DNA of 39,885 nt from Phycisphaerales bacterium (GTDB lineage Bacteria > Planctomycetota > Phycisphaerae > WQYP01), in NCBI GenBank assembly GCA_027313145.1, contig DAHVEJ010000007.1, positions 12,225 through 52,109 on the forward strand. Direction: 5' to 3'. Positions 7,292 to 14,310 of this stretch are shown here, piece after piece (the stretch's first letter is position 1; every line of letters begins with the position of its first letter). The notes beneath the pieces are model-generated. The model searched no databases. It was given only the letters and a program-made list of their open reading frames with translations, and was not told the origin of the DNA. Made by a program: the position numbers and the translations under genes.

Positions 7292-7627
7292 AGTGCGGGG
7301 CACCGGTAGCGGGACGGATCACAAGACCGGAGACGGTCGGTCACGCGGTAACAAAACCTAATAGGCGCATTGGCCGAGAGGGCTGTTTATTACACGGGAT
7401 TATTGATACCGTAGAAAAATTCCGGCGGATAGGGCTGATCCAATAGAAGGATTTATGAATGAAAAGGCCGGCCTTCCGGCGGCAAGCGGAGGCGGCAGGG
7501 GGGCATTTTTTCCTTGTGCGCTTGCCAGTTTGGCTGTTCCGTGCTATCTAAAGCAGCGGTCCGGGACTCGCTATCCACCGGCAAAAGCCGGGGCGGCCTG
7601 GGTGGATCCTTTGGAAGGAGCCTTTCC

Positions 7628-8086
7628 GTGCGAAAAACTTCTACGTTGTCGGCTGGTTTGGGAACTGTGGCAGCACTGGTGCTGGCGATTGGTTTAGGCG
7701 GGTGCGCTAAAAATCAGACCCAGATGAACGGGCCTTCGCTGTATGAACAGTTGGGCGGCCAATCGGGAATTACCACTGTGGTGCACGCCTTTCTGATTAA
7801 TGTCGGAAAGGACCATCGAATTAACGCGGCCTTTGCCCATGCCAATCTGGCGCACTTGCAGGCGCAGATGGTGGCTTATATTGGCGAAAAGTCCGGCGGC
7901 CCGCAAATTTACACCGGCCCGGATATGTATCAGGCTCATAAAGGCATGCACATAACCGATGCACAGTGGAACGCCTTTGTCCAGGATCTCGGCGCGACAT
8001 TAAAGCAAGAAAAAGTCCCGGAACTGGCGCAATCCGAGTTGTTGGGAATTCTTATGCCGAAGAAATCGGAAATTGTCGGCCACTGA
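7628..8086 (+). CDS. Group I truncated hemoglobin, predicted lipoprotein
   Basis: GTG start 7628 after a GGAAGGAG-like RBS; lipobox LGGC; trHb motifs LYEQLGGQSGITTVV, GGPQIYTGPDMYQAHKGMHIT with proximal His. Confidence 0.85.
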   Translation: MRKTSTLSAGLGTVAALVLAIGLGGCAKNQTQMNGPSLYEQLGGQSGITTVVHAFLINVGKDHRINAAFAHANLAHLQAQMVAYIGEKSGGPQIYTGPDMYQAHKGMHITDAQWNAFVQDLGATLKQEKVPELAQSELLGILMPKKSEIVGH

Positions 8087-8118: not shown

Positions 8119-8147
8119 AAGGCCGGCCAGCTCCGGCCTTTTTTTTT
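8119..8147 (+). terminator. Rho-independent terminator downstream of truncated hemoglobin
   Basis: Perfect stem AAGGCCGG-CCAGCT-CCGGCCTT followed by a T tract. Confidence 0.88.
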
Positions 8148-8268
8148 AGATGGATTGCTCGCTACGAAGTTTTTCCGGGGATTTTTTTGGCAGATGATAG
8201 ATTGCCGGGGCTAGAATTGGCTGTTACCGTTGTGGTTGAAATCAGGAAGCAGCGCAACTGAGACCATC

Positions 8269-9354
8269 ATGTTCATGGGGAAAATGTCATTGCAATCGCG
8301 GAACGTGCCTGGGGGGCTGTATTTCGGCCCACCGGCCTGGGACGCGCCGGTCTGGCCCGCACGGGACATCGTTGAGAGTTCCCCGCCAACGCTGTTGCCG
8401 GAAACTCCCGCAGCTCTGCGGGAGGTGCTGCAGCGCTTGAAGATAGGGAACCAGGACATCTGGGCACCGGCTCTTCTCGACCAGCTTAATGGCGGGGCGG
8501 TAAGTGAGGTGGTGCTTAATCTAGTGGCCCCGCAGCCGGAATCGATTCTTCCGCGGGTGTTAAGTGAATTTGAATTGCCGCAACTGATAACGGGTTTGAA
8601 TCTGGTGCGGCGGTGTGTATCGGCACCCCGGGCCATTCTGGCGATTCCACGGGATGAATCGGAAATCCGGTATCAATGGGGGGCTGTGGCAAAAGCGCAC
8701 GCTTTTGCTGTTCGCCCCCTGGTTAATCGATATCCGCTGGGGCACCCCAGTATTTTGTTGCGAGCTTTGCTGGGCGTGAAAATTCAACCCTACGCATCGC
8801 CGGCGGATGCCGGTATTATTCTTTTAGACCCCATGACGTGCTGGATATTGGGCTGCTGGATTGAATTCGGCGGAGTGCCGCACTGGCGTCCGGTGGAGCT
8901 ATTCACCCACAACGCCATGCCCCGGCTCATTGCGGCAAATTTGGGACAACCACTGTCGCAGATATTTTCGGATGCCGGGATCATTTACAAAGAGCGGCAA
9001 TGTATCATCAACGGCATGATGGCCGGGGAACTGGTGAATCCGGAACAGACCGTTTTAGAGCCGTGGATTCGGACTATTTCGCTGCGGCCGCCACCGTTAA
9101 TTGAACAAAGCGTTGATTGTATCCGTTGTGGTTGGTGCGTGAGCGCGTGCCCCGCAGGCTTGAACCCGGCCGGTCTGATGGCTCAGGTTCGCATGATTGA
9201 CAGTTTGCCGGCAATTTCCGCGCAGGAGGCTTCGGCCTGCATTGATTGCGGCCTGTGCAGTTATGTGTGTCCGTCGCGGCTGGCTTTGGCCGTGACGATT
9301 CATTCATTGAAGACCGCGAAAGCGCAGTCGGGCACACCGGGAGAGACGACATGA
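8269..9354 (+). CDS. Divergent RnfC-like electron transport protein with two 4Fe-4S motifs
   Basis: RnfC-type N-terminus (NVPGGLYFGPP), YPLGHPSILLRALLG, and two intact clusters CIRCGWCVSACP / CIDCGLCSYVCP. Overlaps the next gene by ATGA. Confidence 0.78.
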   Translation: MFMGKMSLQSRNVPGGLYFGPPAWDAPVWPARDIVESSPPTLLPETPAALREVLQRLKIGNQDIWAPALLDQLNGGAVSEVVLNLVAPQPESILPRVLSEFELPQLITGLNLVRRCVSAPRAILAIPRDESEIRYQWGAVAKAHAFAVRPLVNRYPLGHPSILLRALLGVKIQPYASPADAGIILLDPMTCWILGCWIEFGGVPHWRPVELFTHNAMPRLIAANLGQPLSQIFSDAGIIYKERQCIINGMMAGELVNPEQTVLEPWIRTISLRPPPLIEQSVDCIRCGWCVSACPAGLNPAGLMAQVRMIDSLPAISAQEASACIDCGLCSYVCPSRLALAVTIHSLKTAKAQSGTPGETT

Positions 9355-10541
9355 CTGCCAAGGACACGCCTATCGGCGAATTACCAGGGCCGGCGGCGCA
9401 CCTGATGGCGCAGCATCATGCCGGGGGGGAAAGGCCTTTTCTTTCGTGGCCCGTGGCGCGGAAGGAATTTTATCAAACGATCAGTGTGTCGATGCTCCTG
9501 CCCCTGTTGTGGGGGGTTGCGGTATTTGGATTCCGCGCTGCGGTACTTATTTTGGCCACCCTGGCGGCGGCAGTTATCACGCACTATTTATTAGCGCGGT
9601 TTACCATGCGCGGCAAACTGCTAACGTGGAATCATACGCTGGCGTATGCGATGGTTGCCTCGGGCCTGACCGCGCCACTGCTGCCCTGGTATTGGGCACC
9701 GGTGATGGGGGCAAGCATGGTGCTGCTCATTTGGATTGCCGGCTTGCCGGGGAAACAACGCTTTCATATTGCTTTGTTGGCACCTCTGGCTCTAACCGCG
9801 ATACTGCTGCCCGCCGGACGCTGGCCGGTGCTGGTGTTAGATCATCTGACGATCGGCGATATTGATAAGTCCATACCGACACAAATATATCGCTGGCCAA
9901 AGCGATCACCGGGCCGAGGCGTCGATGCGGTACTGTTGCCGCGGCCCGAACAGGTTATTCAACACGCATTAGGGAAAATTGCCGGTAATCCGGCGGGGTT
10001 TCAAGCCCACATTGCGTTACAAAATATGTTCGCCATGAATTTGCCATCGCCACCGACGCTGCTGTTGGGTGGCGTTCCGGGGCGCATTGGGACGGTGGGC
10101 ATTTTCGCCATTATAATTGCTGGATTGTATTTGTCGTATCGGCACATTATGCCGCCGGATGAGTCGGCATTATTTTTAATTGCCGTGTTGATCGGGTTAA
10201 TTTTTGGGCCGCTGTCACCGCGCGTGCTGCACCATGAATTTTGGCAAAGTATCGGCGGGTTGTGGTATCTTCCACCGGAAAGATCCATCGCCTTATTATT
10301 TTATGAAGTGTGCAGTTCGGATTTTATCTTTGCGTCGGTATTCATTTTGGCGCTGCCCGGCACATTGCCCATCGAACCGCTGGCTCGGAAAGTGTTTTTA
10401 GTGCTGGCGGGATTGGCCGCCGCATTGTTGCATCGGATTGCCATACCGCTGCCGCCGGCGACCGTTGCGTTGCTGCTGTTACAGCCGATCTCCCCGGCCT
10501 TGGATATGCTGCTGCACCGCCGATCTTGGCTGCTTAATTGA
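9351..10541 (+). CDS. Divergent RnfD/NqrB-like membrane protein
   Basis: Multiple TM segments, translationally coupled to the RnfC-like gene; GGVPGRIGTVGIFAIIIAGLYLSYRHI matches RnfD-type GSTPGSIGETS...LLGGLYLLYR pattern. Confidence 0.75.
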   Translation: MTAKDTPIGELPGPAAHLMAQHHAGGERPFLSWPVARKEFYQTISVSMLLPLLWGVAVFGFRAAVLILATLAAAVITHYLLARFTMRGKLLTWNHTLAYAMVASGLTAPLLPWYWAPVMGASMVLLIWIAGLPGKQRFHIALLAPLALTAILLPAGRWPVLVLDHLTIGDIDKSIPTQIYRWPKRSPGRGVDAVLLPRPEQVIQHALGKIAGNPAGFQAHIALQNMFAMNLPSPPTLLLGGVPGRIGTVGIFAIIIAGLYLSYRHIMPPDESALFLIAVLIGLIFGPLSPRVLHHEFWQSIGGLWYLPPERSIALLFYEVCSSDFIFASVFILALPGTLPIEPLARKVFLVLAGLAAALLHRIAIPLPPATVALLLLQPISPALDMLLHRRSWLLN

Positions 10542-10979: not shown

Positions 10980-13088
10980 ATGGGAATAATCAATGATCTG
11001 CAGGACCGGGCCGCCGGCGAGAGTGATATATTCCTGCAAATATTTAATCAAAGTCCGGCCATCGAGTATCTTTTGGACCCCGAGAACGGTCGTATCGTTG
11101 ACGCTAATAATGCCGCGTGCACCTTTTGGGGTTGGTCGCGCGAGCAATTGCGCACGATGCACATCTGGGATATAAACATTGCGGGTCAGAAGACCTTGGA
11201 GCGGCAGTTCACTGACACGAAATCCGGTGTCACGAAGTTTTTTATCAATCAGCATCGCATTGCATCCGGGCAGATTCGGGATGTAGAAGTTTATGCCCAT
11301 CCGATTATCCTTAAAGGCCATCAGGTTAATCTGATTATTGCCCATGACGTCACGGATCGCCGACGGGCGGAAGAATCGCTTCGCTTGGCGCAACGGGCTT
11401 TGGACGCCGCAACCATCGGCATATTAATTGCCGATGCGCAACAGCCGGACATGCCGATTACCTATGTCAACCCGACGTTTGAAAAGACGACGGGGTACTG
11501 TCAGGCGGAAGTACTTGGCCGTAATTGTCGCTTTCTACAAGGCCCACAACGGGATCAACCGGGACTTGATGAATTAAGATCAGCTTTAAAAGAAGGGCGC
11601 AGTTGCGAAGTGATTCTCCAGAACTATAAGAAAGACGGTACTATGTTCTGGAATCAACTGCACATTGCACCACTGCGTAATGAAGCCGGGGTGGTCACTC
11701 ATTTCGTCGGTGCGCAAAAGGACGTTTCAGATCAAATAGCGGCCAACGCCCGCATTGAGCAACTGGCTTATTATGATCCGTTAACTGAATTGCCCAATCG
11801 ACGGTTATTTCTGGATCGGTTGGCGGCCTGTGTAGCCGTATCGCAAAGAAGTAACGTATTTGGCGCGGTGGTATGTATTGATCTGGATAACTTTAAGAAT
11901 CTTAACGATGCTGCGAGCCATGAGGTCGGCGATGATCTTTTGCGTGAAATGGGCCAGCGACTCAAGCTATCCCTGCGGCAGCAGGACACGATCAGTCGGC
12001 AAGGCGGAGATGAATTTGTCCTGCTGCTTCCGGCATTATCCGACAATTCTGAAATTTCCGCCAATATGGTACAAGGCGCGATCACGCGAATCCAAAAAGC
12101 GATTTCCGAGCCTGTGGTGCTGGGAAATTTTCAGCATCACATTACGGCGAGCATCGGTGTGGCGCTGTTTCCCAAGGGAGTGGAATCCGCATCGGATTTA
12201 CTCAAGCAGGCGGATACGGCCATGTACCGGGCTAAAGCCACCGGACGTAACAGCGTGTGTTACTTTGAACCCGCCATGCAGGCCGCGGTTAGCGCGCGGC
12301 TTACGCTTGAGCAGGATTTGCGCCAAGCCATGGAACGCGAGGATTTTCGCATGTTCCTGCAAGGGCAGGTCAATGCGTCAGGGAAAATTATTGGTGCTGA
12401 GGCGTTAATCCGGTGGCACAATAAAGAAGGGGGGCTGATTTCTCCCATGGCGTTTATTCCTGTGGCGGAAGATACGGGATTGATTATTCCCATGGGAACA
12501 TGGATGCTTAGACAAGCGTGCCGGACAATTAAAAAATTAGAGCAGGCGGGCAGGCCCATTCGTATCTCCGTCAATGTCAGCCCGCGGCAATTTCGCGGGC
12601 CGGATTTTCGAGATTGCGTGGCGATGGTTCTGCAGGAAACCGGCGCTAATCCCAATTTGTTAACGCTGGAGATTACGGAGGCGGTCGTTTTTGATAATCT
12701 TAATGAAGCAATTGCAAAAATGCAGCAGCTTAAGGCGCTGGGCGTGCACTTTTCAATCGATGATTTCGGCACAGGTTATTCATCGCTGGCGTATTTGAAG
12801 AAATTGCCGCTTACTGAATTGAAAATTGATAAAAGTTTTATCCAGGACGCCCCGACGGATATGAATGATGCGTCACTGGTTGAAGCGATTCTGGCGGTCG
12901 CCACCCATCATGGGCTGCAAGTCGTCGCCGAAGGCGTGGAAACCCTCGAGCATGTTGATTTCCTCAAAGAACGCGGCTGCCCGCTGTTTCAAGGGTATTA
13001 TTTTGGCCGCCCCATTTCGGGCGAGGAATTTGTGCAGAAGGTATTAAGTCAGCCAACTGAGAATGTCTACACGGCTCCAAAAATGTGA
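10980..13088 (+). CDS. PAS-LOV-GGDEF-EAL sensory c-di-GMP cyclase/phosphodiesterase
   Basis: LOV motif GRNCRFLQG with KKDGTMFWNQLHIAP and FVGAQKDVS; GGDEF (SRQGGDEFVLLLP); EAL (GAEALIRWHN, DDFGTGYSSLAYLKKLP). Confidence 0.93.
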   Translation: MGIINDLQDRAAGESDIFLQIFNQSPAIEYLLDPENGRIVDANNAACTFWGWSREQLRTMHIWDINIAGQKTLERQFTDTKSGVTKFFINQHRIASGQIRDVEVYAHPIILKGHQVNLIIAHDVTDRRRAEESLRLAQRALDAATIGILIADAQQPDMPITYVNPTFEKTTGYCQAEVLGRNCRFLQGPQRDQPGLDELRSALKEGRSCEVILQNYKKDGTMFWNQLHIAPLRNEAGVVTHFVGAQKDVSDQIAANARIEQLAYYDPLTELPNRRLFLDRLAACVAVSQRSNVFGAVVCIDLDNFKNLNDAASHEVGDDLLREMGQRLKLSLRQQDTISRQGGDEFVLLLPALSDNSEISANMVQGAITRIQKAISEPVVLGNFQHHITASIGVALFPKGVESASDLLKQADTAMYRAKATGRNSVCYFEPAMQAAVSARLTLEQDLRQAMEREDFRMFLQGQVNASGKIIGAEALIRWHNKEGGLISPMAFIPVAEDTGLIIPMGTWMLRQACRTIKKLEQAGRPIRISVNVSPRQFRGPDFRDCVAMVLQETGANPNLLTLEITEAVVFDNLNEAIAKMQQLKALGVHFSIDDFGTGYSSLAYLKKLPLTELKIDKSFIQDAPTDMNDASLVEAILAVATHHGLQVVAEGVETLEHVDFLKERGCPLFQGYYFGRPISGEEFVQKVLSQPTENVYTAPKM

Positions 13089-13245
13089 GCATCCGCCGGA
13101 AATCAACTGCTTGGCGCGGCATGATCGAAGCCCCCCCCATCATATTAACACTTTTGCGAATATCATAAATTCAAATACGCTTTTAACTTCGTCAGAATTG
13201 GCATAGAATATCGTGTTGGATAACCAGCATAAGGTTGGTTGCGCA

Positions 13246-14310
13246 ATGAAAGGGACCGCTGGAATGACCGGCTCACCGGAAGTATTTGATTTGACGATTA
13301 TCGGCGGCGGTCCGGTGGGGCTGTATGCCGCGTATTATGCGGGTTTGCGACAGATGAAAACCAAAATCATCGATTCGCTGGATCAATTGGGCGGCCAATT
13401 GGCCACGCTATACCCGGAAAAATATATTTATGATGTTGCCGGATTTCCCAGGGTTATTGCCCGCGATCTGGTCAAAAACCTCATGGAACAGGGATTGCAA
13501 TATCATCCTTCCGTGCATCTATCAGAAACGGTAAAAACGCTCAAACGCCATGAATCCATGGATTGCTACATTGTCGGCTCAGAGCATGCGGAACATTATA
13601 CCAAAACCCTGCTGATCTGTGCGGGAGCGGGCGCTTTTCAGCCCCGTAAAGTCACGCTTCCCAATGCCGCAGAATGGGAAAATAGAGGCATTTATTATGC
13701 GGTTTCTTCAAAACAGGCCTTTGCCGGCAAGCGACTGTTGATCATCGGCGGCGGGGATTCAGCCTTGGATTGGGCGATGAATCTGCATGGGACGGCATCG
13801 CATATTTCCATTATTCACCGTCGCAATCAGTTTCGGGCGCATGAAGACAGTGTTTCCAAGGTTTTGGCGTTGGGCGTGCCAATATTAACATTTTGGGAAT
13901 TAAAAGAGCTGGTAATAGCCGATAATGTTTTAAAGGGTGCCGTTCTGGTCAATAACCAGAGTCAGGAAGAGCGGACAATATCTGTTGACGCCATACTTCC
14001 GCAACTCGGTTTTATCAGTTCACTGGGCGCTATTAAAAATTGGCCTATCAAGCAGGAAGGCCAATCCATTCTGGTCAACCAGCAGATGGAGACCAATATG
14101 AAAGGGATTTTTGCAGCCGGGGATGTTGCTGGATTTTCCGGCAAGCTCAAGCTGATCGCCACAGGATTTGGCGAGGCGGCTACCGCCGTAAATTACGCGA
14201 AAATTCAACTTGACCCGAAAGCCAAGGCATTCCCGGGGCACAGCAGTGAAATGGGCCCCCAAGCCATGACTACCATTGCTGATCCGCAGCAATCTGTAAC
14301 TGTGCAATGA
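13246..14310 (+). CDS. Thioredoxin-reductase-like ferredoxin-NADP(+) reductase
   Basis: FDLTIIGGGPVGLYAAYYAGLR, LLIIGGGDSALDWAMNL, GIFAAGDVAGFSGKLKLIATGFGEAATAVN; no CxxC redox pair as in TrxB, consistent with the YumC-type FNR. Confidence 0.85.
   Translation: MKGTAGMTGSPEVFDLTIIGGGPVGLYAAYYAGLRQMKTKIIDSLDQLGGQLATLYPEKYIYDVAGFPRVIARDLVKNLMEQGLQYHPSVHLSETVKTLKRHESMDCYIVGSEHAEHYTKTLLICAGAGAFQPRKVTLPNAAEWENRGIYYAVSSKQAFAGKRLLIIGGGDSALDWAMNLHGTASHISIIHRRNQFRAHEDSVSKVLALGVPILTFWELKELVIADNVLKGAVLVNNQSQEERTISVDAILPQLGFISSLGAIKNWPIKQEGQSILVNQQMETNMKGIFAAGDVAGFSGKLKLIATGFGEAATAVNYAKIQLDPKAKAFPGHSSEMGPQAMTTIADPQQSVTVQ

Follow-up and report, generated by a model that had tools for sequence, protein, structure and literature searches.

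RnfC and RnfD have usually been studied within six-subunit flavin pumps, and it is contested if RnfD is a conduit for ions or for electrons alone. Within Rnf, a ferredoxin:NAD+ oxidoreductase, riboflavin in RnfD hands electrons to the clusters of RnfC, from which they pass to FMN and NAD+ (PMC9588780, PMC12174285), and the redox-coupled Na+ step has been assigned to RnfA/E (PMC11889175). The RnfD fold is shared with ammonium and urea transporters (PMC12174285). Reduced relatives have been described as NQR/RNF-like systems (Meheust 2021, PMC8238504; Huang 2024, PMC11334425), in which a PF00175 NAD-binding domain is fused to the membrane part and accompanied by a flavinylated NqrC/RnfG-like partner; these systems are thought to work outward (PMC8238504). 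In Na+-NQR, the RnfC relative NqrA has lost its FMN and NAD sites along with its Fe-S clusters and works with NqrB-F (PMC4014512). Here, an RnfC-like and an RnfD-like gene were analyzed in a 39,885-nucleotide stretch of a Phycisphaerales bacterium genome (GCA_027313145.1, contig DAHVEJ010000007.1, positions 12,225 to 52,109 of the forward strand), hereafter the window.

Homology and altered cofactor motifs

The pair consists of the RnfC-like subunit C (P0001, 361 aa; 8269..9354, forward strand) and the RnfD-like integral membrane subunit D (P0002, 396 aa; 9351..10541, forward strand), whose stop and start codons overlap as ATGA at 9351-9354, in agreement with the coupling and coordinates given in a preliminary description of this DNA. 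C combines a NuoF/RnfC-type domain with a C-terminal di-[4Fe-4S] domain. Its match to the rnfC model (101.5 bits) covers model positions 179-430 only and lies below the model's own cut-off of 246, and Pfam recognizes in it a weak NuoF-type FMN-binding (51K) domain at 32.6 bits against a cut-off of 31.2. D matches PF03116 (NqrB/RnfD) with 62.2 bits, well over the cut-off of 27.7, which is its only Pfam match above cut-off. Profiles built from relatives of C and of D led to the solved RnfC 8ahx_C (E 1.8e-61) and the solved RnfD 7zc6_D (E 2.4e-45), with NqrB clearly behind the latter. Given these model, Pfam, and profile matches, C and D are true but divergent homologs of RnfC and RnfD, and the profile search proposed earlier as a check on that identity placed the homology far above chance. 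AlphaFold2 models were too poor for placing residues in D modeled alone (pLDDT 47) and too poor to use for C modeled with four close homologs (pLDDT 34).

C was aligned as one of 55 reduced C proteins with 17 canonical RnfC proteins from the same class, from elsewhere in the phylum, and from E. coli (Rsx). Both [4Fe-4S] motifs of the form CxxCxxCxxxCP are retained on the forward strand, CIRCGWCVSACP at 9118..9153 and CIDCGLCSYVCP at 9238..9273, as the preliminary description had noted. All eight cluster cysteines are invariant in the 55 reduced and the 17 canonical proteins, and a tryptophan precedes the third cysteine (CxxCGWC) in 53 of the 55 reduced ones. When aligned with canonical RnfC from its own class, P0001 has residues 57-91 (KIGNQDIWAPALLDQLN...NLVAPQPE; 8437..8541, forward strand) where GxGGAGFPT and NGAECEP would stand, so the replacement reported earlier for this segment is upheld, and the GGAGFPT FMN/NADH loop proved to be missing from all 55 reduced C proteins. 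In canonical RnfC, the GxGGAGFPT and ExNK columns are invariant or almost invariant; the reduced proteins have lost both. The window's C also lacks the N-terminal barrel-sandwich domain of RnfC, by alignment and by the lack of a PF13375 match; other reduced C proteins, such as that of the relative L052, retain it (PF13375).

A corresponding alignment of 53 reduced D proteins and 27 canonical ones, drawn from the same groups, localized the changes in D. The canonical flavinylation motif in this phylum, D[AG]x[ST]xATP, aligns exactly on VDAVLLPRP, with T replaced by R in the window. The segment VDAVLLPRPEQ (P0002 residues 191-201; 9921..9953, forward strand) therefore occupies the place of the FMN motif with Arg198 in the threonine column, and the earlier claim that it lacks the SGAT threonine stands. 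This column holds T in 26 of the 27 canonical proteins and R (21), P (14), H (7), or T (2) among the 53 reduced ones; the threonine is lost in 51 of these, and one of the two exceptions, L038, reads RTP. A relocated SGAT or GGAGFPT was ruled out: pattern searches and alignment of the reduced C and D proteins revealed neither at the FMN position, and the isolated matches (SGLT in the window's D, SGAT at residue 329 of the L045 D, and SGAT in the L133 C) fall outside it.

The riboflavin site of D is altered as well. In the RnfD proteins of C. tetanomorphum and A. woodii, riboflavin is contacted by Asn124/123 and Asp248/249 (PMC9588780, PMC11889175). Both contact residues are changed in the window's D, with His139 (codon 9765..9767, forward strand) in the Asn124 column and Leu335 (10353..10355, forward strand) in the Asp248 column, and His95 (9633..9635, forward strand) falls in the column of RnfD Ser79. 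Across the alignment, the Ser79 column is His in 48 of 53 reduced proteins and Ser in 27/27 canonical ones, and the Asn124 column is His or Gln in 50 of 53 and Asn in 27/27. The Asp248 column is more variable: it is acidic in 31 of the 53 reduced proteins and Leu in 10 of the 13 members of the window's family, and families f3 and f10 keep it as Asp or Glu while replacing Asn124 with Gln. Reduced D proteins have also gained near-invariant Leu161, Gly169, and Trp182 residues in the linker that holds the FMN motif of RnfD, and they retain the ten-helix core although both flavin sites are altered. Taken together, the motif changes in D look like remodeling rather than erosion.

Missing partners, distribution, and selection

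The window's genome (4.43 Mb, 93% complete) encodes a single PF03116 protein, namely D. Neither an RnfA/E or NqrD/E protein (PF02508) nor an ApbE flavin transferase was found in it, and RnfG/NqrC (FMN_bind, PF04205) was not found above cut-off, one FMN_bind match remaining below it (E 0.79). The preliminary description had remarked on the lack of rnfA, E, and G nearby; these genes are absent genome-wide, as is ApbE. It had likewise seen no rnfB nearby, and across the genome only Fe-S matches below the rnfB cut-off were obtained, the best reaching 50.8 of 68.7 bits. A search for a full rnf operon elsewhere in the window's genome found none.

To what extent the pair is shared was assessed at the family and class levels. 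Both genes are present in 19 of 20 genomes of the window's family, each at least 85% complete, and reduced pairs also occur, in more divergent form, in many other families of the class. Among 248 class genomes, 158 carry a PF03116 protein, and 85, all of them within the 158, carry RnfA/E. The remaining 73 have D without RnfA/E; 60 of these also carry C, and in 13 a divergent D is found without detectable C. ApbE occurs in 83 of the 85 genomes with RnfA/E versus 15 of the 73 with D but no A/E. Since RnfA/E is missing from 73 of the 158 genomes that encode a member of the RnfD family, an annotation as RnfC or RnfD is by itself no evidence for Rnf energy conservation. For the survey proposed earlier, of RnfCD loci lacking the cofactor motifs, the outcome within the class is that close homologs are not always encoded with full rnf sets. 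The description of the pair as an orphan needs qualification: it holds in that the window's genome has no full operon, yet the pair belongs to a lineage, and several f10 genomes encode a reduced pair and a complete Rnf elsewhere in the genome. In one genome of the window's family (G015, L154:5101-6324), an intact C with both clusters was observed, and D was undetected at the locus and genome-wide. A single scan of genome contigs matched only close relatives; the plasmid matches listed were 24-28% identical and, where the gene was annotated, rsxC.

In a tree of 72 D proteins, a 100/100 branch (length 0.89) divides all those of Rnf, NQR, and the C-D-G trios of other Planctomycetota classes from all reduced D proteins. 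This split is compatible with a single origin of the reduced lineage, but the tree is unrooted. Both genes are under selection, with dN/dS between the window and four congeners of 0.11-0.19 for C and 0.10-0.18 for D. These values of 0.10-0.19 and the recurrence of the pair across family and class indicate that it is not a product of decay. That a lost rnf operon left the pair behind as a decaying relic, as the missing subunits and cofactor motifs might suggest, is accordingly hardly credible; the lineage-specific near-invariant residues argue in the same direction, and this explanation was rejected on dN/dS and conservation.

Gene neighborhood and candidate functions

No neighboring gene common to all lineages was found, nor was a conserved ferredoxin or quinone gene beside the pair. 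Instead, the neighbors are lineage-specific: a globin in f1, an LpxA-like acyltransferase in f3, a TIM-barrel isomerase-like gene in f6, and, in f10, a PpiC-type isomerase upstream with QueE/QueD downstream. In the window, a truncated-hemoglobin lipoprotein (PF01152, 51.2 bits; 7514..8086, forward strand) lies directly upstream of C and is probably exported, judging from its lipoprotein-type signal. It holds this position in genera g1, g2, g4, and g8, though the other neighbors differ (relatives at L037:308-775, L041:2351-2821, L042:10323-10919(-), L053:6376-7017, and L039:5850-6332), and it is a possible partner of C-D. It is not at the locus in g5, g6, g7, or g11, nor in any of the other families looked at, and a terminator-like hairpin with a T tract (8119..8149, forward strand) suggests that the globin gene and C are transcribed separately. 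About 2.7 kb downstream of the pair lies a thioredoxin-reductase-like ferredoxin-NADP reductase (13213-14310; best PDB match 6gas, E 1e-100), for which NCBIfam gave only sub-cut-off matches to thioredoxin reductase and related models; its linkage to the pair was seen only within the window's genus. A PAS-PAS-GGDEF-EAL protein (10980-13088) is encoded between D and this reductase. In f10, queE (radical SAM) and queD follow the pair, 16-25 nt downstream in some genomes (L127:4116-5133(-); L129, L132, L130, L045, L052, and L125). In one f12 genome only, a PreA-like dihydropyrimidine dehydrogenase subunit (L144:486-1607) directly precedes a reduced C-D; its match stops at model position 333 of 422, so it may lack the Fe-S part usually found at the C-terminus.

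The pair probably performs a membrane electron-transfer job that is so far undescribed. With about even confidence, we favor a C-D complex derived from Rnf in which electrons would run from a soluble carrier through the clusters of C and the remodeled pocket of D to a quinone or a non-covalent cofactor. C would be docked to D from the cytosolic side, in the manner of RnfC and RnfD, and would accept electrons from a soluble low-potential carrier, either ferredoxin or a flavoprotein feeding the clusters. The electrons would then cross the two clusters into the D pocket, which would correspond to the place of riboflavin in RnfD and be lined by the near-invariant His (Ser79 to His) and the His or Gln replacing Asn124; there, a quinone or a non-covalently held cofactor would receive them. 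Once FMN in C, the NAD site, FMN in D, G, A, E, and ApbE are subtracted, the contact of the C clusters with the D pocket is all that is left, and a reductase is favored on this ground. Without A and E, the complex could not carry out the redox-coupled Na+ step, so it would be a plain reductase and not a pump. The argument about the pocket is based on alignment columns, and we infer every step beyond the two clusters and the placement of C on D. The downstream ferredoxin-NADP reductase counts in favor of this mechanism. Against it stand the C without D in G015, the divergent D without C in 13 class genomes, and the failure to find a conserved ferredoxin or quinone gene neighbor. Since most members of the window's family have Leu in the Asp248 column, the site may even bind nothing redox-active. 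The preliminary description had proposed a two-subunit Rnf derivative operating off the standard route; this was borne out in part, through the family-wide motif losses and the absence of the transferase and other subunits.

Other explanations share part of this evidence. Electrons could leave C across D toward a periplasmic acceptor, perhaps the globin lipoprotein in the window's family, and serve O2, NO, or peroxide removal. The persistence of the globin directly upstream in four genera despite differing other neighbors would fit such an outward conduit, as would the outward look of the C-D-G trios and the direction assumed for the published NQR/RNF-like systems (PMC8238504). Nevertheless, the pair has lost both subunit G and the covalent FMN close to the outer face, the locus has no globin in the other genera and families named above, and the hairpin splits the globin gene from C, leaving this route unlikely. 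It is somewhat more doubtful still that D is mainly a transporter or channel, with C, the Fe-S protein, sensing or driving its gating and no electrons passing through D. The kinship of the RnfD fold with ammonium and urea transporters (PMC12174285) and a ten-helix core that outlasted both flavin sites speak for this, but every C carries two complete clusters, which suits electron transfer, and no transporter-type signature was identified.

A cryptic FMN or riboflavin site, through which the pair would still act as an NADH/flavin enzyme, is improbable. The weak 51K domain in C lies just above its cut-off, and f3 and f10 keep an acidic residue in the Asp248 column beside Gln for Asn124; against this, the FMN/NADH-binding loop is missing from all 55 C proteins, and the window's D has neither the two riboflavin contacts nor the threonine. 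The coexistence of reduced pairs with full Rnf in several f10 genomes would allow C and D to be spare subunits joining a complete Rnf encoded elsewhere, which we regard as very improbable, since 73 class genomes, the window's included, have D but no RnfA/E. For the window's genome itself, this explanation is contradicted, as only the unassembled ~6% could hide the rest.

Comparison with described systems

The window's pair resembles Rnf (RnfABCDGE/RsxABCDGE) in the homology and gene order of C and D, in the two [4Fe-4S] motifs of C, and in a D that passes PF03116. It differs in lacking A, E, G, and ApbE, with no B above cut-off; in lacking the FMN/NADH loop of C and the FMN threonine of D, with changed riboflavin contacts; and in lacking the N-terminal barrel-sandwich domain of C. 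Because several defining features were tested and are not present, classing the pair as Rnf would be wrong. From Na+-NQR it is separated by the absence of PF02508 and, above cut-off, of PF04205 from the window's genome, and by a D nearer to RnfD than to NqrB. With NqrA it shares the loss of the FMN and NAD sites in an RnfC relative; however, its clusters are invariant and the other NQR subunits are absent. The NQR/RNF-like systems are likewise two-gene reductions whose NqrB/RnfD-like membrane domain has no flavinylation threonine, whereas the D studied here is paired with a separate Fe-S protein of RnfC type, with no PF00175 fusion and no FMN_bind protein above cut-off.

RnfC-D-G trios were observed in other Planctomycetota classes (L201:2434-5623, L205:3839-6963, and L202:3378-6842). 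They share the C-D order and have no A, B, or E alongside, but C keeps GGA[GTA]FP, D keeps the threonine motif, and G is flavinylatable. RnfA/E-type (PF02508) genes occur elsewhere in the same genomes, and each trio may be a half Rnf that leads from NADH to the periplasm and accompanies a full Rnf. The gene upstream of the trio in L201 and L205, an LL-diaminopimelate-type aminotransferase or a PpiC-type isomerase, has a counterpart upstream of reduced pairs such as L052, L127, and L129. It is reasonable, and no more than that, to read these loci as steps by which full Rnf was reduced first to C-D-G and then to C-D.

Among open-access papers, with subscription papers and preprints mostly outside the scope, no report was found of a lone RnfCD pair or of RnfC/RnfD with a truncated hemoglobin. 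Within these papers, the pair appears undescribed, in keeping with the earlier suggestion of an undescribed Rnf/Nqr derivative, and the nearest published counterparts are the NQR/RNF-like two-gene system and NqrA. On the same literature, the pair is a new variant built from Rnf parts. A selected lineage that has C and D only and dispenses with flavin chemistry offers a natural means of testing how the work of Rnf is divided among its parts. The lineage also points to an undescribed route of electron entry or exit in largely uncultured Planctomycetota. Tentatively, at slightly less than even confidence, we propose that, next to Rnf and Nqr, it forms a third branch: a membrane oxidoreductase of two subunits, RnfC and RnfD, spread across one large Planctomycetota class, which would dispense with the NADH, C-bound FMN, and covalent-FMN sites and pass electrons from a cytosolic Fe-S carrier to a new cofactor or quinone site within the RnfD fold.
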